From NCBI GenBank assembly GCA_023246415.1, contig JAHFIK010000004.1, forward strand, positions 13,563 to 46,536: DNA of 32,974 nucleotides, in the 5' to 3' direction. The translations under genes were made by a program, and so were the position numbers. The notes below the pieces were generated by a model that was not told where the DNA came from, ran no database searches, and saw only the letters and a list, made by a program, of their open reading frames with translations. This DNA comes from Candidatus Uhrbacteria bacterium (GTDB lineage: Bacteria; Patescibacteriota; Patescibacteriia; 2-12-FULL-60-25). Below are positions 17,361 through 32,571 of this stretch, in pieces. How positions within the stretch are numbered: position 1 is the first letter of the stretch; the number at the start of each line of letters is the position of its first letter.

Positions 17361-20300
17361 TTAAATGGCTTCACCTGGTAAGAGGACGATGGATCCTGGA
17401 TACACGATCCATGGACGATCCGCGCTGTTACTGATCGAGAGTGTTGAGCACTCGTTCGGACCAATGGCCGTCGTGAAATCGATATTATTCCTGACGAGCG
17501 AGGCATCGTAACACCCGCCGTTCGGATGGAGGACCGGACTCTTCGAGACATCAACCAGCTTCCCAACCTGATTCGTGGCCCCGCGACATTCGCCGCTACA
17601 CCATCCCCAGTTGTCGATAATCATGACACGCGGGGTGAAGAGACAACGGTTATTTGCGGAGTCATAGCACCCACCCGGCGCAGACATTGTATCCACACAG
17701 GAGTCGGTTGGTCCGCATCCCGCGGCGCACGTCCGGCTATTGTCGCGTGAGCACCGTCCAACCACACTCGTCCCGCTCAAACTACACGCGGTGAGAACGT
17801 TTTGTGCATTCGCCGGACAGGAGAACGCGTGACGGAATTCAAGATACTGCTGTTCACACGCGTCACTTGAATTTCCGAAGTAGATGCGTTTTTCACAGGT
17901 TCCGGACTCACTGCCAATCGTACATTGCTTGTCGTTAAAGCACTTTGTGTTCGGATTATTTGAGCAGTTCCCGTAAGACTGACAGGACCCTCCGCCCGGC
18001 GGACAATCATTGTCCGTGTTACACGTCAGCCCCGGCGTATCCGTACATTCCTTGTTCGTATCGCAGAACGGCTTGCGGTTCTTCATGTAGGCATCCGGCA
18101 ATTCAGACGTCGATCCGTCTCCCCAATCCACAATCACGCGACGAAGCGGCATCTGTTCATGCGAAGCCCAGGCGTAGAATCGGAGTGCGGCCACGTGATT
18201 CCCAACGCCACCGTTCGCCAGTCCGCCGACGAGCCCATCCACCGACAGCGTGTCCAATCCCGCAACGCGGCACTGCTGTCCCTGACACGTTCGGATATCC
18301 GGAGCGGCCGTGTGTGGAGGCTGTGGCGAGTAATAATCGACGTAGTTGAACTTCAAGGTGGAATCTGGTGGATACGTCGCCGGGTTCAGGAATCGAGGGG
18401 TATACAGACCCGGGGTGACATCCGTTGGAAGCGGCACGGTATCCTTCACGCTATTTGAGACGTTTGTCAGATCGTATCCGAACAATCCGCAGTATTCATC
18501 ATTTGGATCAAGGCAGTAGTTCGGTCGTGGCCAGTATCCCGGCGGATGCGTACAGATATTTGAATCCTGTGCCGGATCGGTTTCAAGTCGAGGATTCTTT
18601 GGATTCGATGACGAGTAGTTCGGCCAGCAATCCGTATTCACACTCGTTCGATCGTACGAATTCTGTGGATTCGTCGTGTCGTTCCCAGAGGTCACCGGAT
18701 TACACCAGTTATCGGCATCGCTCAGCTTCACACCTGCCGGACGACAGTCTGAGTCTTGGCCACACCCGGCCCCCGCGCGTGTTCCCCCGCGGCAGGTGCC
18801 ACCGATCACGGTACTCGTGGTCTTCGAATCACGGAACATGAGCGCCACAGATTCACACGCACCGTAATGCGCAACCATGGTCGGCGAGACGTTGTTCGGA
18901 TCCCAGCTCGCATTCTTCGTGAAGTAGACAAACGGCGCCGCACTGTTCTGAACCTGATTCATGTCAATCTTCCCCGCACCGAAGTTTAGCTGGTTGTAGT
19001 CACTCCCGTTTGCACTCCAGAACACAAGTGGATTAAACCCTGGCATGAGCTGCATCAGACTCCGATCATCCCAGGAATCATAGGACAGGGTATGCGTCCA
19101 GACGGCACCAGACACCGACGGAGAGATCGCCGTAAAGAAGAGCTTCGTGCTTTCACCTGTTGGTCCGGTCCAGTTTCCTGCGGTGAGCTGCGTATCCCAT
19201 GAAACGGATGGATAGAAGGCTGCCTTGGCCGCGTCACGATTCTCGACCAAGCGAAGACCAAACTCTGATCCGAACCAGTCGGTCTGCGCATAATGGAAAT
19301 CATAGCTTCCGGACGGATAAGCCGTATTCCCAAGCGATTTATCACGGTACCCCAACGGCCAAGCGGACTCTTCACCCCATCCAGACACCATGAATCGATT
19401 GTTTCCATCGCCGGCTGGCCACCAGTTTCGAGCAAGGAACGTACAGTCTGCGCTCGTCTTGCACTGTGCCCATGGAGAACCGCCACACGTTCCAACCGTT
19501 TCGCCAGATTCAATGTTGCACTGCTCGGAGCCAGACGGCATGGCAAGCGGACACTCGTGACTGCGTGTCGACAATTTTGAACAGTAGCTCGCGTATGTCT
19601 CCCCCTGCCCAGCATAACTCTGATAGACCTGATCCGGACTCCGAACCGAACCCGCTTCACAGCGGAACGCACCCGCCTTCACCGCATCCGCCCGTGAGCA
19701 TCCATTCTGATTCGAACTTCCAACCACGCCATCCCACGTACAGTTGCTCAAGCTCCCCGTCGGACAGTCCTTCCCGGTACAGCGATAGTTCTTATTTACA
19801 CTCGTCCATTTCGCATCAATCGCAGTCCCATGCGACGCATCCGCCGGCGTATAGCCTTGGAACAGCGCACAAGCTCCAAACATCGGTGTCGGGACGCCAT
19901 CCTGCTCGGTCATTGGCGCAATGTGACAGATATCCGGATTCCCTGAACAATCCAATCCGCGATTCAATCCGCTGAAGGAGTTACACACCTTGCTTCCGAA
20001 CACGTTCCGCGCATCCAAGCTTCCCTTTACGCACTTGCCCGCATATCCGCAGTACTGTTCCGCAAGCGACTTCTTCTTCGCATCCGCATCCGACCCGCTC
20101 ACGAGATCCAGGTTCGGACACCACTGTCCAAACTGCGGGGACGCCCGGTTCGTACATGCCCAATCGCTTCGGCTCACAGAACGCGTGGAATACCCGTAGA
20201 TGCGGTAGATGCGCGCGAATACATTTGAAAGGAGCCCCCAGTTGCTCGTCGGATACGTTGATGACTGGAAATAGGTCTGGCCCGGGAAGGTGAATGTCGG

Positions 20301-23300
20301 CGGATTCAACGGGTTCACTTGAGACTGTTTAACCCCAGACATGTACAGCGGTTGTGTTCCTGCCTCCCCTGTTGCGAGCGATGCACCGAACGGAATATTC
20401 GTGGTGTTCCAAGTAAATCCATTCTTCAACGCGTATCCGCTCTGCGCCGAATTCCGATCCGTGAACACCGTTGAGTCGTGGCTGTCTTTCGAAATCGTTT
20501 CGACCAATTCTCGACAGACGTCCGCGCTGTTCATCTTCATCTGCATGTAGATGTACCGCGTCTGATCACCCGGCGCACATGCCGACACCCACAACCCAAC
20601 GAACTGGAACGGACCGGTGAGATGTTCCGGATTCACTTCAAGCGCGTCGAGATCGTTTTCTGATGAGGCGACATCCTCGAAGACGGCTCGGATGGAGAAC
20701 CATGGGTGCGAGGAATCGCACTTCCCATAGAGCGGATGCGTCGAAAGGCGGTCCAATGATTCGCGCCCGATATCCGGCGAGAATGCCAAGAACTTATCCT
20801 GACCTTGCGAGCGATAATCAATCTGCCAACTCTTGATAAAGCACTGCTGCGTTTCCGGAGAACGATCTGCATCGCCCATCACGCAGTCCACCTTTACCGG
20901 AATGCCGGTCGGACTCCCGTCTTCCGTGACGATCTGCGCATTCTTCCGATCAAGCATTCCACCACCTTCTTGCAGATACTTCTTGAAGTTCGCCTGCCAC
21001 GCATCGTCCTGTGGTTTCCAACTGTCGACATCTCCCCAATCTTTCACTGCCGCGTCGCCCCATTCCTGGCTATATCCGCATCCGATCTTTCCCGCCGGAA
21101 CGTTGAATTCGAAACTGGAGATTGAATCCTCGGTTGAAAAGTCCAAGACCGTTTCTGGATCTGTCGGCGTGTACCCAAGCGTCCCGTAGGCGATCTCAAC
21201 CGGGTTCATCATGAACGCGTATTCCGCGTAGGAACGATTCGTCCCTTGTCCGGTGGTCACCAGCCGCATTTCATCTGTCTTATAGATAAAGGCCTGGTCC
21301 TCATCGTCCACTTCTTCACAGATATTCCCCTGCTGCGTGCCGTCTGAATTCTGTCCATCGATGGACGCCCCGCTTTCGCCTCCTGTACATCCACCCACGA
21401 AGAGGAAGTTCACACAGCTCCCATCTGACGTAAACCAATCCGCGTAGAACAATGCGCTAATTGCGCCTGCGTAATTTCCTGAACTGTTCGGCATGAATCC
21501 GACACCTGCAATACAGGTCATGTCCTCACCGCATCCGACCGGTCCACCGATATTGTTTGCTCCAGCAATGTAATACCCCGTATCCGCACTCGCCTTGAAT
21601 TCCATATACGCCGGAACGTACATAGCGAGCGCAACAGCGGTCCAGCTAAACCCTTCTCGCGGCACATCATTCGGACGCCACGAGTATGGCCAGAGATACT
21701 GACTCCGCGGTCGACGAATCGGCGAGGAACAGTAATATCGTCCGGAAGACTGTGGAGGTTTGAAGCCTGATGTCGGTTCCCAGTGATACTGATCGCCCGG
21801 ACCGGTCAAAATCGGATTCGGATTCCACAGCAGACATTCGCTCTGCGACGAACCTGCACGCGGCCGCGAGATGTCATACTCCAAACACTGTCCGGTCATC
21901 CCTCGAACGAGCGTTGAATCGGTAATCGGAACACACTGGCCTGATCCGCACTGCTGAATACTGTCACCATGCGGCGCTTGATAGTTCACATTCGCCGTCC
22001 CGGTGGCTCCGCCGCCTGGCGGCTCACTTCCTGAAATCGAGACATCTGCCGTACATGGAAGACCATCGCGTGGACCGCCTTGGCAAACCGCATTCACCAC
22101 ATCTGTCGATAACGGTTCGTAATATTTGAGTGTCCCCTTATATCCGACCCGCTTATAGACACATTCACAATCTTCGCCGTATTCGCAGAAGGTCGCATTC
22201 GTGTACCCGTCCACCACCCGTTTCGGTTGCGGCGGATTCACCGAATCATCCCACTCAATCACATACGCATTTCCAAACGGAGCGGTCGCTTCTGGGGAGG
22301 CTTTACACTGCGTATTCGGGAAGGCACGCGACAACATCTGATCCTGACTCGGATTTTGATCTTGCGTAAACCGTTGATCCAGGAATGGAACCACGAGGTT
22401 ATCGGATACGATCGTTGTGGCCACCCCGCCGATCGCTGGCGGACGTTCCTGGTCCACCGCTTCCCAGCAGAGATCCGTCTGTGCCGCCGCAACCACGCTC
22501 GACGGATTCGCGGAATCATTCGTCTTCTTCAACAGACCGTCAGATGTCGTGAGGACGCCCATCGCTCCGGTCTGCTTCAAGATACAAACATACTTCGAGA
22601 GGAGCGGCACGGATGCGAGTGACGAGATATCTGCCGCACTCGGACTCACATTCACTAAGCCACTCGAAACCGGCACCGGCACGCCCAGACGATAATCTTT
22701 CTTGAGACTACTCTTCGTTTTCGGATCCAGCGTGAGCATGGAACCAATTGGCTTCAATTTTGCATCAATGATCTGGAAGTGATTCGGAATCGTGAGCCCG
22801 CTGTAGTCCACCGCACCGAATCCAACTTTTCGGGTTGCGTAGGTCATCGCATCGGTCACGGCATATGGCTTAAAGATCGTCTCGCCAATACCGGTTCGAT
22901 TCACATACCCCGTGCAGAACGGCACCCCTTCCGCGCCCGTTTCACCGGACGAGTTACACAACGCAAGATCAGAACAGATATTCTTATAGGCCCCGACGGA
23001 CGGATCATAGACCGTTTCACCAGTTCGACAGGCGAGCCATTGGGAACAGGCGCGATCCGGCTTCACCTTCACCACGAGATTCGTGTCATTTCCTGTTTTT
23101 GCCGCGGCGCCGGAACAGCTGATCATTGCCTGCTCGGGCGTCTGTCCTGCGGACCCGGCTCCGGCAAGACATCCGGTAAACCCACCATCCGTGGCGTGAT
23201 CCTCCGCATACGCTTTCGCATACGTCAGACGCGCTCTCACACATGACGGATGATCCGGCGTTCCGACACAGTCCACCGGACTCACCGGTCGGTACCCGCG

Positions 23301-26300
23301 CTCGCGATACGCATCTTGCGTAGCCGCTGAGCTGAATCGCATGGTGTTATCTGATGTATCACGGAACAAGACACATCCGTTTCCTGGATCCACTTGGCCA
23401 TTACAGCTCGCCGTATCAAGACGACTATCATTCACGATGTCGTATGGACGACCAGCTGGATGCGCAGGATCGCTGACATCATTTGGATCACGGAACTCTG
23501 TACATTCTGCCTGATCCTGTGGACACGTTGCCGTCCAACCGTGGTAGGTCTGATTCGTTCCATCGGCATTTTTTCCATAGAGGCTCTGATCCGCACCGAC
23601 CCAGGCGTTATATCCGGCATCACCGGTATATCGGAGACCGAAGACGCTTCCAGTGATCAACCGATCCGGGTAACACGGACAAGAGGTTCCGGTCTTATAC
23701 CACCCATCGTATGTCCTGCCGGAAAAACGAGACATATCCTGGCCGTCACACGTCGCCGGAATAACAACCCCCTGCTTCCATTCACAGACGTGATCACTTG
23801 GAGCGCGGAAATAGGCCGTTGATGATTGCCCATTTGCATTGTACGTGTACGCTTCACAGAACAATTCCGGCTGCGAACAAAGCGCATTGCTGTAATTCGA
23901 CGGATCGTCTTTGAGGTAGACCGTGGTAAACGGCGTATCCGTCTTCAGCGCAAGACGATCCTGCGTGAATTGCGGAAGACCGAATGCGCGACACCCCTTT
24001 GCTGAATCCGGACACATCTTTGCCTTTGATGGAATGTAGTATGCGAAATGATCCGCCGGTTTGACGGTCACCTCCGTGACGCCACCTGATCCCGGCTTTT
24101 CCCAACGTGATTCATACGGCGTATCCGTGTTCTCTGTATTCACGTACGCCTGACATCCGATCGCTGTTTCGCGACAGAGTCGACTGAACTGCCGTGCGTT
24201 CACCGTGACGTTTGATCGATTCGTATACGCCTCACACCCCAACATCGCGTGTGGCTCTGGAATCCCTTCCGGTGTTTGGTCACATGACGCCGGTGTCTGC
24301 CAGGAATCCTTCACGACATACGTCACGTCCGAAACACGCTCCACACGAATCTTATCGATGAAGAACGAAGCCGTCCCAAGCCCTTCCAACCGAATTTCGG
24401 TTGCGTTCGCATTCGGGTAGTTTGAATCACTGGTAAACGGACCGAGGCGGTACACGCGCCACTCCGATGACACTGAAACCGTTCCAATCGGGTTCCCGAC
24501 CCCCATCGCGCGCGTTGCCGGATCAGACCAAGTGTATGCCGACACCGCAACGTCCTGAGGCGGACCGGCTCGCTTCGCCCAGAACGTCAGTTCATACATG
24601 ACGCCAGACTCGGTCGGAACGCTGAAGTACATGTAAGACCCGTTCGTTGGAACCGCCTTCAACGAGCTGTCGCCAACCAAGACAGATTCCGTCGATCGCG
24701 ACAACCCAACGCTTGAAGCGCCTGGACCGACCTTCACCGTGCTCACGTCCGTATCAGTCGTGAAGTCATCGCTCCACACAAGCGTCTGCGATTTTCCAGC
24801 CGTACCGACATATCCACGACACCCTGCAGCTGCCGGCGTACAGGACTTCGATTTTGTCCCAAGCGCTTCATACGTACAGGCGTTCGTCTGTGCGTTAAAC
24901 GCCCCGCCAGTTAACCGACAGTCTGCTTCGCTCGACCGATCCAATCGGAACTGCTGACAGTTCGTATCTGAAAGCACGGTCTGTGACTCAAATCGATAGA
25001 AGACATTTCCCTGCGGATCGTAGAACTGACGACAGTCTGGATCGAATCCGCGAATATAGGTATCCGCATTACAATCGCCCGGCGTCTTCAATACGCCATC
25101 TGGACCCGGCTTCTGCACAACGAGCGGTCCCTGCGGCGCGGTGGCCGTCAGATCACGAACCATGCTCCAGGTCCGAAGTTGGAACCCAGTGTCTTCCGAC
25201 CCTTCCCACGTGTAGTACGTCTGTGCCGCATCGCTTGGCTGCTGACAGCTTCGAAGATAACTGTACGCTGCAGAGACATCGCCGCCATTTGCGGCTGCGC
25301 CAAGATTTGTAAACTGCTCACATCCAACATCTGCCGCTGTGCAGAAGCGCGCCGTATCCGGAACAAAGTACGCGACGGTTTCATCATTCGGATCATCCAG
25401 AAGCGGCTGCGATGGATTATGAACGTAATCAAACGTTGATGGCTGTTTTCGGAATTCTGAATAGCCGACACACTCCGACGGACAGGAATCAACCGCAGAC
25501 AGCACGGCTGGAATTTCAGGTGCCCCCGGCTGACGCGTTAATCGGTACCCATCACATCCGGCTTCATTTTCTCGACAGACTTTCGCATAACTGGCACAGA
25601 GCGGATTATCCGTACTTTCCCCCGTACATCCGAGTTCCGCTGGCGGGATCTTCATGTCCACCGTGTCCAAATTGGCATTCAACCCATCCGCAAATGGCGT
25701 GGCCACTTCAGACTCTTCGAGCTTGACCGCATCGATGAGCGGGGCAGACGCATTCCCCGCAACAACGAAGACCAATCCCCAAACCGCGTTTGCCGGAGCC
25801 GTAAACGAGCACTGCAAGCGCTGCCAGTTCGATCCAATCGTCGACGGAATACCGACATTCACGTTGGTATTCCGCGAGCCTGCAACGCTATTCGTGTCCG
25901 TGCATCCAGAGGTCTTAAAGAACGTTGTGTCCGTTGTCTGATTCGCTCCCTTTGATGGAACCAGATTTGGATCTCCGCCCTGGATTGGGAACATCTGAAT
26001 CGTCACCCCGGCCGCACTTGGTGCTCCAGCACCAGCGCGCGCGTAATACGAAATCGTATATTGATGAGATGGGGTCAACCGAACAAGCTGTCCAAGTGAT
26101 CCGGGTGGTGGTGGAACGATGGCGCGCGCACCATCCGCAGAGACATCACCGGTCGTCACCGCCGGAACCGCATACGCCAACGGATCAAAATTCTTTCCGC
26201 TCACGGATCGGTTCGTCCACCAGCGCCGCCATCCGACGAGTTCTCCGGACGCTGATGAATCATCCTCTTCAAAGGAGCCATTTTGAATCAAGTTAATCGA

Positions 26301-28415
26301 TGGTTGACCGGCAACAACGGACTTCAACTCCGTACACCCATCGTTCTTCGCATCACATGTTGATGCAGACGCATCGAAATACACTTTCCCAAGCGTTCCG
26401 GAATAGGTTGCGGTCCATGCATTATCTCCCGCGAGCGGATTACGCGTCGTGGCGTACCACATACACCCGACGTTCGACGCGCTGCAATTTCCGTAATCAA
26501 CAGAACTCCGCAAATACCCAATCGGCTTTGCGTTCGTCCCGCGTGGCGTAAACATGCGGCAGCTGACAAACTGCTCGCTGCACGACTGCCCTTGGAATTG
26601 CCAGTACGGCTGTTCCGCCAGACAGTATCCATACCCACCGATACATTTTCCATCCGCGTCCCGCTTCAAACAGGAGACGGAATCTTGGCATTCAAACTGT
26701 CGATCCGCTGTCCCGGTGAGCAACGTATTTCCGTACCCCTTCACCGTACACTTTGACGGGAAGGCATCGAGCACCCAATTCGGATCAATCAAGTGACACC
26801 ACGGATGTGCATCGTCCAAGGTCCCCCGGACGCTTCCGCCATTCGCGGTATCGTAATTACAATCGTCGAACTTTGAAACGACTTCACCGAACGTAATACA
26901 TCCGACACCGCTCGCGCATCGTTGGTTGTTAATTGAAGAATCTGCCGCCAATTCCCAGCCGATCGGAATGATCCGCGCGAGCCGCAACTTTCGAAGGTTT
27001 GCGACGCAGAATCGATCTCCATTCGAAGCGCATGAGGGATCCTGGTTCTGTTGGATATCGGACGCTGGAATCAATTTTGCATTCTTATTAATAAATCCCT
27101 TGTCCAAGGCTTCACGGACCGTCAGCCCGCCTTGGGTCAACGCGAGCGCGAGATTCGCATCAATCGCGCACGACCAGCGCGTGCGCGTTCCTCCGGTACA
27201 AGAGGCCTGAAGTTCCGCGAGCGTATTCTCCTCTTCAGCCGACGTCAGCTTCGGCGTCAGAATATCTTTAAATTGTTCTGAGAAAATTTGCTGCGGTTGC
27301 GTGGCCTGCGGTGGTGCCGCAAACGGATTCGTCAAATCCAACGTGGACCCCTTATCCGCCGACGGCTGGAACAATCCTTTCATCACCTTTGAAAGCAATT
27401 TGGACGTCAGCGTATTCACGAACGTCGCGATGGTTGCTTTTCCGATTTCCACGAATCCAAGTTGGAACGCGTTCATGACAATGCCGAGACGCGTCGTTTG
27501 CTCGTTCTCTGCCGGACCGCGAATCAGCTGCTGATCAAATTGTTCTTTCACGGTTTGTGACGGCGTCTTGATGCTCCCGGTGACATAATCTTTGACCGGC
27601 TTATATCCCATCCCTTCCAACCGATCGAGAATCGCCCCCTGCTCGCTTCCGGCAACGGCATCGAGAAGCGGCGTGTGCAACGCAACCGCATAGGACAAAT
27701 CATTCCCTCCGGTCTGGAAGGTGGCTCCAATATTCGCAAGCGCGTCGGCGTTTGAGAGGGATGCTGCAGCCGTACTCCAGTTCCGCGTCAGCTGTGCCCA
27801 AGGACATTTTGGTGTTGGCCGCTTCAGCGGAATCGCGATGTCTGGAATGGAAAGCGCGAGCGAGAGGTTGATGGCTTGCCAGCTTGGCGGCTTACACAAG
27901 TTGAGCCCGAACTTACTCGTGAAGTCTTCCGAAAGCGTCCCGACGAATTCACCAAGCGCATCCTTACTCACGTCCGTGATGTAGTCACCGAAACTCTTTC
28001 CGTAAAACAACGGTCCCCCGGCCGGTCCCCCATCCGCAATCCAGGACGCGGTGTCGTACGCGATGGTCTGAGCGAGGTACGTGGCCGCATTCAAAAATCC
28101 GTAGAGCGCGGCTGTCAATAAATGAAACTCAATCGCGTTCTCCACCCGATCAACCGTTCCCTGTGCCTGACCCGTATCCGTACACAACCCCAACCCCGGA
28201 GCGGCGAGCAAGAAATCCGTACATGGCTTCGGCTTCACGGGCGGACCGACCGTCGACTGCCACATCTCCTCCGCATGCGCCACCGGGATCCCGATGATCC
28301 CCATGAGGACCGGATTCGTAAACGTGATTGACGCGAGCAAAATCCCAAGGAGGATTGTGGCTCCGAATCGCGTGGTAAGCACTTTTGGCTTACGGTTGTG
28401 TTGGTGATCCAGCAT
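17361..28415 (-). CDS. giant (3684 aa) secreted Cys-rich protein
   Basis: Single uninterrupted ORF; N-terminal signal ATILLGILLASITFTNPVLMGIIGIPVAHA|EE; repeated C-x5-G-C motifs (CRENEAGC, CTAADVGC, CTPAAAGC, CRETAIGC, CPDSAKGC, CDAKNDGC, CSASNVGC); jelly-roll/CBM-like segments; PKD-like VDWGDGSTSE near the C-terminus. Confidence 0.9.
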   Translation of the reverse strand: MLDHQHNRKPKVLTTRFGATILLGILLASITFTNPVLMGIIGIPVAHAEEMWQSTVGPPVKPKPCTDFLLAAPGLGLCTDTGQAQGTVDRVENAIEFHLLTAALYGFLNAATYLAQTIAYDTASWIADGGPAGGPLFYGKSFGDYITDVSKDALGEFVGTLSEDFTSKFGLNLCKPPSWQAINLSLALSIPDIAIPLKRPTPKCPWAQLTRNWSTAAASLSNADALANIGATFQTGGNDLSYAVALHTPLLDAVAGSEQGAILDRLEGMGYKPVKDYVTGSIKTPSQTVKEQFDQQLIRGPAENEQTTRLGIVMNAFQLGFVEIGKATIATFVNTLTSKLLSKVMKGLFQPSADKGSTLDLTNPFAAPPQATQPQQIFSEQFKDILTPKLTSAEEENTLAELQASCTGGTRTRWSCAIDANLALALTQGGLTVREALDKGFINKNAKLIPASDIQQNQDPSCASNGDRFCVANLRKLRLARIIPIGWELAADSSINNQRCASGVGCITFGEVVSKFDDCNYDTANGGSVRGTLDDAHPWCHLIDPNWVLDAFPSKCTVKGYGNTLLTGTADRQFECQDSVSCLKRDADGKCIGGYGYCLAEQPYWQFQGQSCSEQFVSCRMFTPRGTNAKPIGYLRSSVDYGNCSASNVGCMWYATTRNPLAGDNAWTATYSGTLGKVYFDASASTCDAKNDGCTELKSVVAGQPSINLIQNGSFEEDDSSASGELVGWRRWWTNRSVSGKNFDPLAYAVPAVTTGDVSADGARAIVPPPPGSLGQLVRLTPSHQYTISYYARAGAGAPSAAGVTIQMFPIQGGDPNLVPSKGANQTTDTTFFKTSGCTDTNSVAGSRNTNVNVGIPSTIGSNWQRLQCSFTAPANAVWGLVFVVAGNASAPLIDAVKLEESEVATPFADGLNANLDTVDMKIPPAELGCTGESTDNPLCASYAKVCRENEAGCDGYRLTRQPGAPEIPAVLSAVDSCPSECVGYSEFRKQPSTFDYVHNPSQPLLDDPNDETVAYFVPDTARFCTAADVGCEQFTNLGAAANGGDVSAAYSYLRSCQQPSDAAQTYYTWEGSEDTGFQLRTWSMVRDLTATAPQGPLVVQKPGPDGVLKTPGDCNADTYIRGFDPDCRQFYDPQGNVFYRFESQTVLSDTNCQQFRLDRSSEADCRLTGGAFNAQTNACTYEALGTKSKSCTPAAAGCRGYVGTAGKSQTLVWSDDFTTDTDVSTVKVGPGASSVGLSRSTESVLVGDSSLKAVPTNGSYMYFSVPTESGVMYELTFWAKRAGPPQDVAVSAYTWSDPATRAMGVGNPIGTVSVSSEWRVYRLGPFTSDSNYPNANATEIRLEGLGTASFFIDKIRVERVSDVTYVVKDSWQTPASCDQTPEGIPEPHAMLGCEAYTNRSNVTVNARQFSRLCRETAIGCQAYVNTENTDTPYESRWEKPGSGGVTEVTVKPADHFAYYIPSKAKMCPDSAKGCRAFGLPQFTQDRLALKTDTPFTTVYLKDDPSNYSNALCSQPELFCEAYTYNANGQSSTAYFRAPSDHVCEWKQGVVIPATCDGQDMSRFSGRTYDGWYKTGTSCPCYPDRLITGSVFGLRYTGDAGYNAWVGADQSLYGKNADGTNQTYHGWTATCPQDQAECTEFRDPNDVSDPAHPAGRPYDIVNDSRLDTASCNGQVDPGNGCVLFRDTSDNTMRFSSAATQDAYRERGYRPVSPVDCVGTPDHPSCVRARLTYAKAYAEDHATDGGFTGCLAGAGSAGQTPEQAMISCSGAAAKTGNDTNLVVKVKPDRACSQWLACRTGETVYDPSVGAYKNICSDLALCNSSGETGAEGVPFCTGYVNRTGIGETIFKPYAVTDAMTYATRKVGFGAVDYSGLTIPNHFQIIDAKLKPIGSMLTLDPKTKSSLKKDYRLGVPVPVSSGLVNVSPSAADISSLASVPLLSKYVCILKQTGAMGVLTTSDGLLKKTNDSANPSSVVAAAQTDLCWEAVDQERPPAIGGVATTIVSDNLVVPFLDQRFTQDQNPSQDQMLSRAFPNTQCKASPEATAPFGNAYVIEWDDSVNPPQPKRVVDGYTNATFCEYGEDCECVYKRVGYKGTLKYYEPLSTDVVNAVCQGGPRDGLPCTADVSISGSEPPGGGATGTANVNYQAPHGDSIQQCGSGQCVPITDSTLVRGMTGQCLEYDISRPRAGSSQSECLLWNPNPILTGPGDQYHWEPTSGFKPPQSSGRYYCSSPIRRPRSQYLWPYSWRPNDVPREGFSWTAVALAMYVPAYMEFKASADTGYYIAGANNIGGPVGCGEDMTCIAGVGFMPNSSGNYAGAISALFYADWFTSDGSCVNFLFVGGCTGGESGASIDGQNSDGTQQGNICEEVDDEDQAFIYKTDEMRLVTTGQGTNRSYAEYAFMMNPVEIAYGTLGYTPTDPETVLDFSTEDSISSFEFNVPAGKIGCGYSQEWGDAAVKDWGDVDSWKPQDDAWQANFKKYLQEGGGMLDRKNAQIVTEDGSPTGIPVKVDCVMGDADRSPETQQCFIKSWQIDYRSQGQDKFLAFSPDIGRESLDRLSTHPLYGKCDSSHPWFSIRAVFEDVASSENDLDALEVNPEHLTGPFQFVGLWVSACAPGDQTRYIYMQMKMNSADVCRELVETISKDSHDSTVFTDRNSAQSGYALKNGFTWNTTNIPFGASLATGEAGTQPLYMSGVKQSQVNPLNPPTFTFPGQTYFQSSTYPTSNWGLLSNVFARIYRIYGYSTRSVSRSDWACTNRASPQFGQWCPNLDLVSGSDADAKKKSLAEQYCGYAGKCVKGSLDARNVFGSKVCNSFSGLNRGLDCSGNPDICHIAPMTEQDGVPTPMFGACALFQGYTPADASHGTAIDAKWTSVNKNYRCTGKDCPTGSLSNCTWDGVVGSSNQNGCSRADAVKAGAFRCEAGSVRSPDQVYQSYAGQGETYASYCSKLSTRSHECPLAMPSGSEQCNIESGETVGTCGGSPWAQCKTSADCTFLARNWWPAGDGNNRFMVSGWGEESAWPLGYRDKSLGNTAYPSGSYDFHYAQTDWFGSEFGLRLVENRDAAKAAFYPSVSWDTQLTAGNWTGPTGESTKLFFTAISPSVSGAVWTHTLSYDSWDDRSLMQLMPGFNPLVFWSANGSDYNQLNFGAGKIDMNQVQNSAAPFVYFTKNASWDPNNVSPTMVAHYGACESVALMFRDSKTTSTVIGGTCRGGTRAGAGCGQDSDCRPAGVKLSDADNWCNPVTSGNDTTNPQNSYDRTSVNTDCWPNYSSSNPKNPRLETDPAQDSNICTHPPGYWPRPNYCLDPNDEYCGLFGYDLTNVSNSVKDTVPLPTDVTPGLYTPRFLNPATYPPDSTLKFNYVDYYSPQPPHTAAPDIRTCQGQQCRVAGLDTLSVDGLVGGLANGGVGNHVAALRFYAWASHEQMPLRRVIVDWGDGSTSELPDAYMKNRKPFCDTNKECTDTPGLTCNTDNDCPPGGGSCQSYGNCSNNPNTKCFNDKQCTIGSESGTCEKRIYFGNSSDACEQQYLEFRHAFSCPANAQNVLTACSLSGTSVVGRCSRDNSRTCAAGCGPTDSCVDTMSAPGGCYDSANNRCLFTPRVMIIDNWGWCSGECRGATNQVGKLVDVSKSPVLHPNGGCYDASLVRNNIDFTTAIGPNECSTLSISNSADRPWIVYPGSIVLLPGEAI

Positions 28416-31665: not shown

Positions 31666-31710
31666 TGAGGGAGGTAAGGCGATACAGTATGGAGAGGTAA
31701 AAACGTTCTC

Positions 31711-32213
31711 TCCATTTTCCCGAGGAGTCCCCGACGAGGGATCCCTTGGAAGTGGCATTTGGAATAGGCGACGCCTCATGAATACCTATCCCAAAACCTC
31801 GCCAAATCACACCATGTTGGGTTCTGCCCTGCGATAAGACGCTCCTTCTTTTCACGGCGCCACGATTTAATTTGATATTCGCGAGCACGAGCCTCACTAA
31901 GCTCTGCATATTTTTCATAATAGACGAGCTTGTGACAACGATATTTTGATGAAAATCCTGGCATCGTATTTGCCTTATGCATACTCACTCTCCCAACGAT
32001 GTCGATCGTCGAACCGATATAGAGCGTACCGGAGATACTCGCCATGATGTAGACGCAAAATTCTTCAGATTGCATATCTGTATTCAGTGATCTACCGCGA
32101 GATGCAAGTCAATATTTCGAATTTTTGCTAAATCAAAATATTTTTTGTGGCCGTTCCGTTTCAAGAAGTCCCTTCCAAGGGATCCCTCGTCGGGGACTCC
32201 TCGGGAAAGTGGA
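31711..32213. mobile_element. inverted-repeat-bounded unit carrying a GIY-YIG gene
   Basis: 31716-31752 (tttcccgaggagtccccgacgagggatcccttggaag) is the exact reverse complement of 32172-32208; homology extends outward (tcca) with one mismatch. Mobility is inferred. Confidence 0.6.
31776..32075 (-). CDS. GIY-YIG nuclease family protein
   Basis: FCVYIMASISGTLYIGSTIDIVGRVSMHKANTMPGFSSKYRCHKLVYYEKYAELSEARAREYQIKSWRREKKERLI. Confidence 0.92.
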   Translation of the reverse strand: MQSEEFCVYIMASISGTLYIGSTIDIVGRVSMHKANTMPGFSSKYRCHKLVYYEKYAELSEARAREYQIKSWRREKKERLIAGQNPTWCDLARFWDRYS

Positions 32214-32282
32214 TAAAAAAAGCGCGTTTTCAAAAGCATCTCCTAACTCGCTAGAACGCTTCCGCCCTACCTCCCTAAACGA

Positions 32283-32316: not shown

Positions 32317-32441
32317 CATAAAAAAGCCTTAAGCAATCCGTCTCCAAGAAATCTTATGACAGGAGAGTGCGAGTCCGTAGACCTGCGTCTTCCTGCAATT
32401 AGATCCCATGCTTGTCGTGGAAACGGACTGCTCAAGGCTTT
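32317..32441 (-). ncRNA. candidate structured small RNA (6S-like rod architecture; family unassigned)
   Basis: Minus-strand RNA: AAAGCCUUGAGCAGUCCGUUUCCA (32441-32418) pairs over all 24 positions with UGGAGACGGAUUGCUUAAGGCUUU (32346-32323), including 3 G-U pairs; central bulge; CAGGA/UCCUG helix; apical hairpin GGUC-UACG-GACU; ends GGCUUUUUU. Confidence 0.55.
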
Positions 32442-32571
32442 GACCCTGATTGGTCCTTATTTCGAAACGAACACGCGAGAATGATGAACGGAACCTTTTT
32501 TGTTCGCTTTTTACTGCTTTTTGTGTTGGGCCTAAAAAACCGGTTCTCTCCGGCTTCAAGGATCTAGCCGG

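Follow-up and report, generated by a model that had tools for sequence, protein, structure and literature searches.

Inverted REP arms around a minimal GIY-YIG nuclease gene in Candidatus Uhrbacteria: a candidate partner enzyme for CGTC-class REPs

The closest described parallel to the locus reported here is the partnership between RAYT (TnpA_REP) and the GTAG-tagged REPs and REPINs, also termed the REPtron. In both systems, an enzyme gene is flanked by inverted REPs of its own family, gene-less dimers are numerous, one enzyme is found per REP family (here, within the host genome), and REP abundance correlates with presence of the gene. The two differ in enzyme and in repeat: RAYT is an HUH Y1 transposase, whereas the enzyme here is a GIY-YIG nuclease in a host genome in which no Y1 gene was found; and the REPs here are of the CGTC/TGTC class (GTC tag) rather than the GTAG class, with a window arm that reads CACTTTCCC. 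Unlike insertion sequences with terminal inverted repeats, the window unit lacks any known type of transposase.

The GIY-YIG domain is the classic homing-endonuclease fold. GIY-YIG homing endonucleases (I-TevI, I-BmoI and the Seg proteins) share the catalytic core and a selfish presence/absence pattern with the nuclease studied here, but the latter has no added DNA-binding domain, and its gene is intergenic, bounded by REPs, and located outside introns and conserved genes. The nearest solved folds are instead those of the minimal proteins UPF0213 and Slx1, and UPF0213 likewise consists of the domain only. Stand-alone GIY-YIG genes that fall outside the subfamily described below differ, however, in being REP-flanked at only 2 of 29 loci.

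The CGTC-tagged REPs, of which dRS3 of Neisseria and the rickettsial RPE-4 and RPE-6 are members, share with the present repeats the GTC tag, the AT-initial stem, the stem-loop and the inverted dimers; these features are found in two repeat families of the host genome (C8 and C20) and at most loci elsewhere, although the tag of the window arm itself has diverged (PMC3733652 for the class). The main survey of this class, from 2013, reported that CGTC REPs "apparently lack a dedicated transposase", with neither a dedicated enzyme nor an associated transposase (PMC3733652); here, a GIY-YIG gene adjoins them. A survey of GIY-YIG proteins does not mention palindromes (PMC1564403), and no paper linking GIY-YIG with REPs, RAYT, REPIN, MITE or dRS3 was found in the open-licence literature.

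The window unit and the repeat families of its genome

The window, which is the whole stretch of 32,974 nucleotides analysed here, contains the following features:

31716 to 31752, plus strand: left REP arm, 37 bp, with a perfect inverted partner at 32172-32208; its 25-bp core has 48 genome copies.
32172 to 32208, minus strand: right REP arm, the exact reverse complement of 31716-31752.
31706 to 31764, no strand assigned: left 59-bp half of a longer, imperfect inverted repeat, with 86% complementarity to 32160-32218.
32160 to 32218, no strand assigned: right half of this longer repeat, pairing with 31706-31764.
31776 to 32075, minus strand: stand-alone GIY-YIG nuclease gene, 99 aa; Pfam PF01541, E=1.4e-14.
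About 2717 to 2839, no strand assigned: short-form REP dimer without a gene, belonging to the family of the window arms, its right arm partly degenerate.

The original prediction described perfect inverted repeats of about 37 bp with a 99-aa GIY-YIG protein as the only gene inside them, and both parts of this description are accurate. The arm at 31716-31752 is TTTCCCGAGGAGTCCCCGACGAGGGATCCCTTGGAAG, its exact reverse complement lies at 32172-32208, and the single gene-sized ORF between them is 31776-32075 on the minus strand. Both arms are nested in the 59-bp inverted repeat, and shuffles of the window give an expectation of 0 matches to the arm core. The GIY-YIG domain covers most of the protein (P0001), for which PF01541 is the sole Pfam match and NCBIfam has no family. 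No Rfam family reaches the gathering threshold in the window, and no known transposase (DDE, HUH, serine or tyrosine) is present in the unit, which encodes GIY-YIG only. Elsewhere in the window, an ORF of 3684 aa (17361-28415) has no Pfam match at E<=0.001.

The window arm family reads CACTTTCCC and has no terminal CGTC, TGTC or CCTC tag. It retains, without the GTC tag, the core CCCGAGGAG...CGACGAGGGATC that is common to CGTC REPs, and this arm (CCCGAG...CGACGAGGGATC core type) is similar to the arm of another locus, L110 (TGTCATCCCGAGTGAGCGAAGCGACGAGGGATC). Judged by these sequence features, the window arms are a divergent member of the CGTC/TGTC REP class.

At least 99% of the 141 subfamily members keep the catalytic-type residues Y9, Y19, R29, E66 and N85 of the protein, and H33 as well; nuclease activity is therefore probably under selection. 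The AlphaFold model has a pLDDT of 89.7, and the solved folds nearest to it are those of UPF0213 (BH0048 and EF2693) and of Slx1, a structure-selective nuclease. Pfam places no NUMOD or other DNA-binding or target-recognition domain in the 99 residues, which hold the nuclease domain only.

Allowing up to 3 mismatches, pattern searches, from which all host-genome copy numbers derive, detect 48 copies of the 25-bp arm core in the host genome (1.26 Mb), compared with 0 for a reversed control pattern. The majority of these copies form inverted pairs 80 bp apart, yielding gene-less elements of 119 bp that fold very stably (z=-11). At a variable dinucleotide within the arm, the two arms of a dimer match in about half of the cases. 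Genome-wide, the 37-nt end is thus dispersed and mostly nuclease-free, although a rare nuclease-bearing form does exist. The proposal of a minimal transposon with 37-bp ends of its own is incorrect in that form: most copies of the end have no nuclease, the ends are a REP family, and the gene-bearing form is its rare form. A MITE-like origin of the short form, by internal deletion of the gene-bearing unit, is not supported: homology beyond the arms is not significant (the best of four comparisons of internal sequence gave p=0.036, not significant after correction).

The host genome has seven GIY-YIG matches, among which the window gene, C8 and C20 form one subfamily. Each of these three is enclosed by a perfect inverted pair of arms, respectively 37, 38 and 26 bp long and different in sequence; the window arm type surrounds only one of the three, the window gene. 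Each arm type is itself dispersed, with 48 copies for the window type and about 45 and 15 for the other two, and the family of about 45 copies reads TGTCATTCTGAG...GAAGAATC. The C8 and C20 arms, TGTCATTCTGAGCCTGCGAAGAATC and TGTCATTCCGCGCAGCGGAATC, are typical CGTC/TGTC REPs in their tag, AT-initial stem and inverted dimers. No such arms accompany the remaining matches (UvrC, C6, C32 and C50), of which C50 runs off the end of its contig and C32 sits within a region of tRNA-like repeats. A Y1 transposase (PF01797) has no match in the host genome.

The second of the genome's REP families (L212-L221) forms dimers of about 175 bp with a further long palindrome in the spacer (CAACCGAATTCGCAAACGGTCTCGTAGAG...), as if dimers were nested. 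At C32:3882-4091 (L034), a different stand-alone GIY-YIG ORF sits amid repeated tRNA-like sequences (CATTCCGGGGTAGCGCAGCGGTAGCG), as if it had been inserted into a tRNA gene.

REP flanking and co-occurrence across phyla

With a profile built from the three host-genome proteins, relatives turned up in the majority of 57 related genomes and at 80 loci in public genomes from many phyla; in the protein tree, the subfamily is close to one clade. Flanks were defined as lying within 200 bp, and REPs were recognized by a structured motif: GTC, a 5-nt stem, a loop, the matching stem, and C. Inverted repeats were evaluated against dinucleotide shuffles and other-gene controls; a null of mispaired flanks was dropped as contaminated by the shared motif.

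Flanking inverted repeats are significant in the shuffle test at 45 of 60 subfamily loci, compared with 3 of 29 other GIY-YIG loci from the same genomes. REPs of the CGTC/TGTC class lie on both sides, within 200 bp, at 95 of 138 subfamily loci versus 2 of 29 other GIY-YIG genes; the association of GIY-YIG genes with such ends is specific to the subfamily. The both-flank loci span 16 named phyla plus CPR relatives. REP density is highest less than 100 bp from the gene, and the GTC tags of the nearest REP pair point outward in 69 of the 95. Among the multi-phylum loci, REPs on both sides accompany 57 of 78 GIY genes versus 33 of 245 other ORFs, and outward tags 50 of 78 versus 12 of 245. Genes for Y1 (RAYT-type) transposases have REPs on both sides in 1 of 20 cases.

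Left and right arms have a 5-nt stem in common at 53 of 98 loci, where 13.6 are expected from shuffled pairs. Across phyla, REP similarity tracks protein similarity (rho 0.27), a value reached in 0 of 1000 permutations and in 1 of 1000 when permuted within phyla. Such co-variation alone is no proof of recognition, as joint inheritance by itself could explain it. It does show gene and ends travelling together. REPs are absent at 2 of 8 plasmid loci (L260 and L264), and phages gave two weak matches only. One subfamily member, in Neisseria gonorrhoeae (L263, NZ_CP119140.1), is embedded centrally in a dRS3 array, with 16 ATTCCC-N8-GGGAAT matches in about 1.6 kb.

Co-occurrence was assessed in 145 genomes across the phylum, with REP-rich defined as at least 10 REPs and with relatedness partly controlled. 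Genomes that carry the subfamily are REP-rich in 32 of 45 cases, compared with 6 of 100 that lack it (OR 39, p=7e-16). A sample of 57 genomes agrees, and 10 of the 13 families that hold both states point in the same direction. For the Y1 transposase, the odds ratio for REP-richness is 2.6, and the effect disappears on conditioning on the subfamily; the rve integrase control gives 1.3, which is not significant. Y1 is also found in about 60% of GIY-positive genomes (association OR 3.1). The Y1-positive, GIY-negative genomes are REP-rich in 4 of 35 cases, and of the 17 of 45 GIY-positive genomes without a Y1 match, 13 are REP-rich. RAYT was accordingly rejected as the mobiliser: the host has no Y1 match, Y1 genes are not REP-flanked, and the effect is null after conditioning. 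Some subfamily-positive genomes have zero matches to the REP pattern searched. Conversely, G107 (61 REPs) and G062 (17 REPs) are REP-rich with no detected subfamily gene, which may have been lost, missed, or replaced in its role by another enzyme.

Orthologous sites without the unit

In Azospirillum lipoferum 4B, REPs and the GIY-YIG gene lie between sufB and sufC. Three related species, with flanks 95.5-96.5% identical, have sufB-sufC with neither gene nor REP. As no such REP occurs within 50 kb around the site in any of the three, the comparison speaks to presence and absence only, and the exact insertion junctions cannot be read. Short extra matches, apparently REP dimers, occur, among the matches listed, only on other replicons of 4B. 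Sphingobium plasmids present several states: some have REP-GIY-REP, others a single REP, and another neither. The outer borders of the REP-only allele coincide with those of the gene-bearing allele, and the former may represent either a target or the scar of a deletion. Presence of the unit differs in Shinella as well. Within the window genus, VanW runs straight into the next feature in two relatives that lack the unit, and a third relative (G001) has REPs without the gene at the orthologous VanW site; identity in this comparison is about 70%, too low for an exact junction.

Unit-free alleles, by which a homing gene is recognized, are thus present in the window-genus, Azospirillum, Sphingobium and Shinella comparisons, and the empty sites anticipated by the original prediction exist, for example in Azospirillum at 95.5-96.5% flank identity. 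Target-site duplications, also anticipated, were not found, either by eye in the genome's own copies or at the inexact junctions of the relatives. Ends without a nuclease and at conserved syntenic positions had been named as evidence against a mobile unit; the ends are indeed mostly nuclease-free, but conserved syntenic positions were not seen, the unit being missing from the orthologous site in relatives. Taken in aggregate, the cross-phylum recurrence, matched arms, arm-protein co-variation and unit-free sites strongly support the proposal that the nuclease and its ends form one unit.

Beyond the unit, window positions 32318-32442 contain a conserved long-hairpin sequence that recurs downstream of VanW in genus and family relatives. 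In five homologues, 9 of the 42 predicted pairs are kept with changes on both sides, and the covariation term is slightly unfavourable; no Rfam family matches this hairpin at threshold. It may be an undescribed structured RNA.

Proposed mechanism and alternative explanations

The window unit is probably a gene-bearing REP dimer of REPIN-like organization (REP arm, GIY-YIG gene, inverted arm), with the subfamily as partner enzyme of the CGTC/TGTC REPs. The best reading, by analogy, is that the GIY-YIG subfamily would fill for CGTC/TGTC REPs the place that RAYT fills for GTAG REPs. If so, inverted REP dimers would likely extrude from single-stranded or supercoiled DNA to form hairpins or cruciforms; the minimal GIY-YIG nuclease would cut at the REP or next to it; and host repair would copy the dimer to a new place or convert the broken site. 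The gene-bearing dimer could be the cis substrate of its own nuclease, with the gene-less dimers as substrates in trans. Known GIY-YIG enzymes hydrolyse DNA, and none is known to join strands; the integration step would therefore have to come from host repair. The association and its specificity, the outward-facing tags, the matched arms, the co-occurrence at genome level and the variable presence of the unit at orthologous sites are observed; we infer REP cutting by the enzyme, dispersal driven by that cutting and the involvement of host repair, and the integration step is the weakest.

Homing that leaves the REPs unmobilised would account for some of these observations. The nuclease would target REPs or nearby sites, the gene would enter existing REPs by repair, and the REPs would spread otherwise. 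Consistent with this, the fold is that of classic homing endonucleases, the Sphingobium REP-only allele lies exactly where relatives hold REP-GIY-REP, and G001 has REPs without the gene at its orthologous VanW site. However, the REP-only allele could also be a deletion scar, and no REP occupies the empty site in the Azospirillum relatives. Gene-less dimers far outnumber gene-bearing ones, the window protein has no NUMOD or other DNA-binding domain, and homing alone does not predict the dependence of REP abundance on gene presence; this explanation is considered unlikely. It is still less probable that the gene is a passenger, carried or tolerated between REPs that RAYT/Y1 or an unknown enzyme spreads. 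The overlap with Y1 in about 60% of GIY-positive genomes (OR 3.1) would fit, but Y1 has no match in the host genome or in 17 of the 45 GIY-positive genomes of the phylum sample, 13 of these 17 being REP-rich, whereas Y1 without GIY coincides with REP-richness in 4 of 35. Strong constraint on the catalytic residues also argues against a passenger, as do the REP-flanking of Y1 genes in only 1 of 20 cases and the 2013 survey, in which no tyrosine transposase gene was flanked by CGTC repeats (PMC3733652).

A role in host upkeep, in which the nuclease trims REP hairpins or cruciforms, or REPs regulate its expression, and the gene is kept because REP-rich genomes need it, draws on the similarity to the structure-selective nuclease Slx1 and on the very stable folding of the dimers (z=-11); the co-occurrence is compatible with a need created by REPs. 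This would leave unexplained the position of the gene between inverted, matched, outward-tagged REPs, its patchy distribution and absence at orthologous sites, and the low REP numbers where it is absent, and upkeep is accordingly judged improbable. Coincidence, in the form of convergent terminators or chance palindromes beside a small gene, has very little to recommend it: intergenic DNA often contains REPs, which may act as terminators, but REP flanking is less frequent for neighbouring ORFs, for Y1 genes and for other GIY-YIG genes, and the genome-level odds ratio is 39, so that the controls contradict it.

On the preferred reading of a gene-bearing REP dimer, the window unit belongs, as a divergent member, to a widespread REP/GIY-YIG partnership whose population-level behaviour is like that of RAYT and REPINs, with an unrelated enzyme. 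We lean slightly towards the broader proposal that CGTC-type REPs, present in at least 16 phyla and including dRS3 of Neisseria, are spread by minimal GIY-YIG nucleases, as a second and independently evolved REP-enzyme system. In this proposal, a plain nuclease aided by host repair takes over the task of a transposase, and the balance tips just as modestly in favour of that part. Few bacterial repeats are as widespread as the CGTC REPs, for which the subfamily supplies a specific, testable candidate enzyme with strong statistical support; any host that carries the two partners could serve directly for tests. The finding also suggests a role for a very common stand-alone family hitherto annotated only as "GIY-YIG nuclease family protein", and suggests that REP-enzyme partnerships originated at least twice, with unrelated enzymes.
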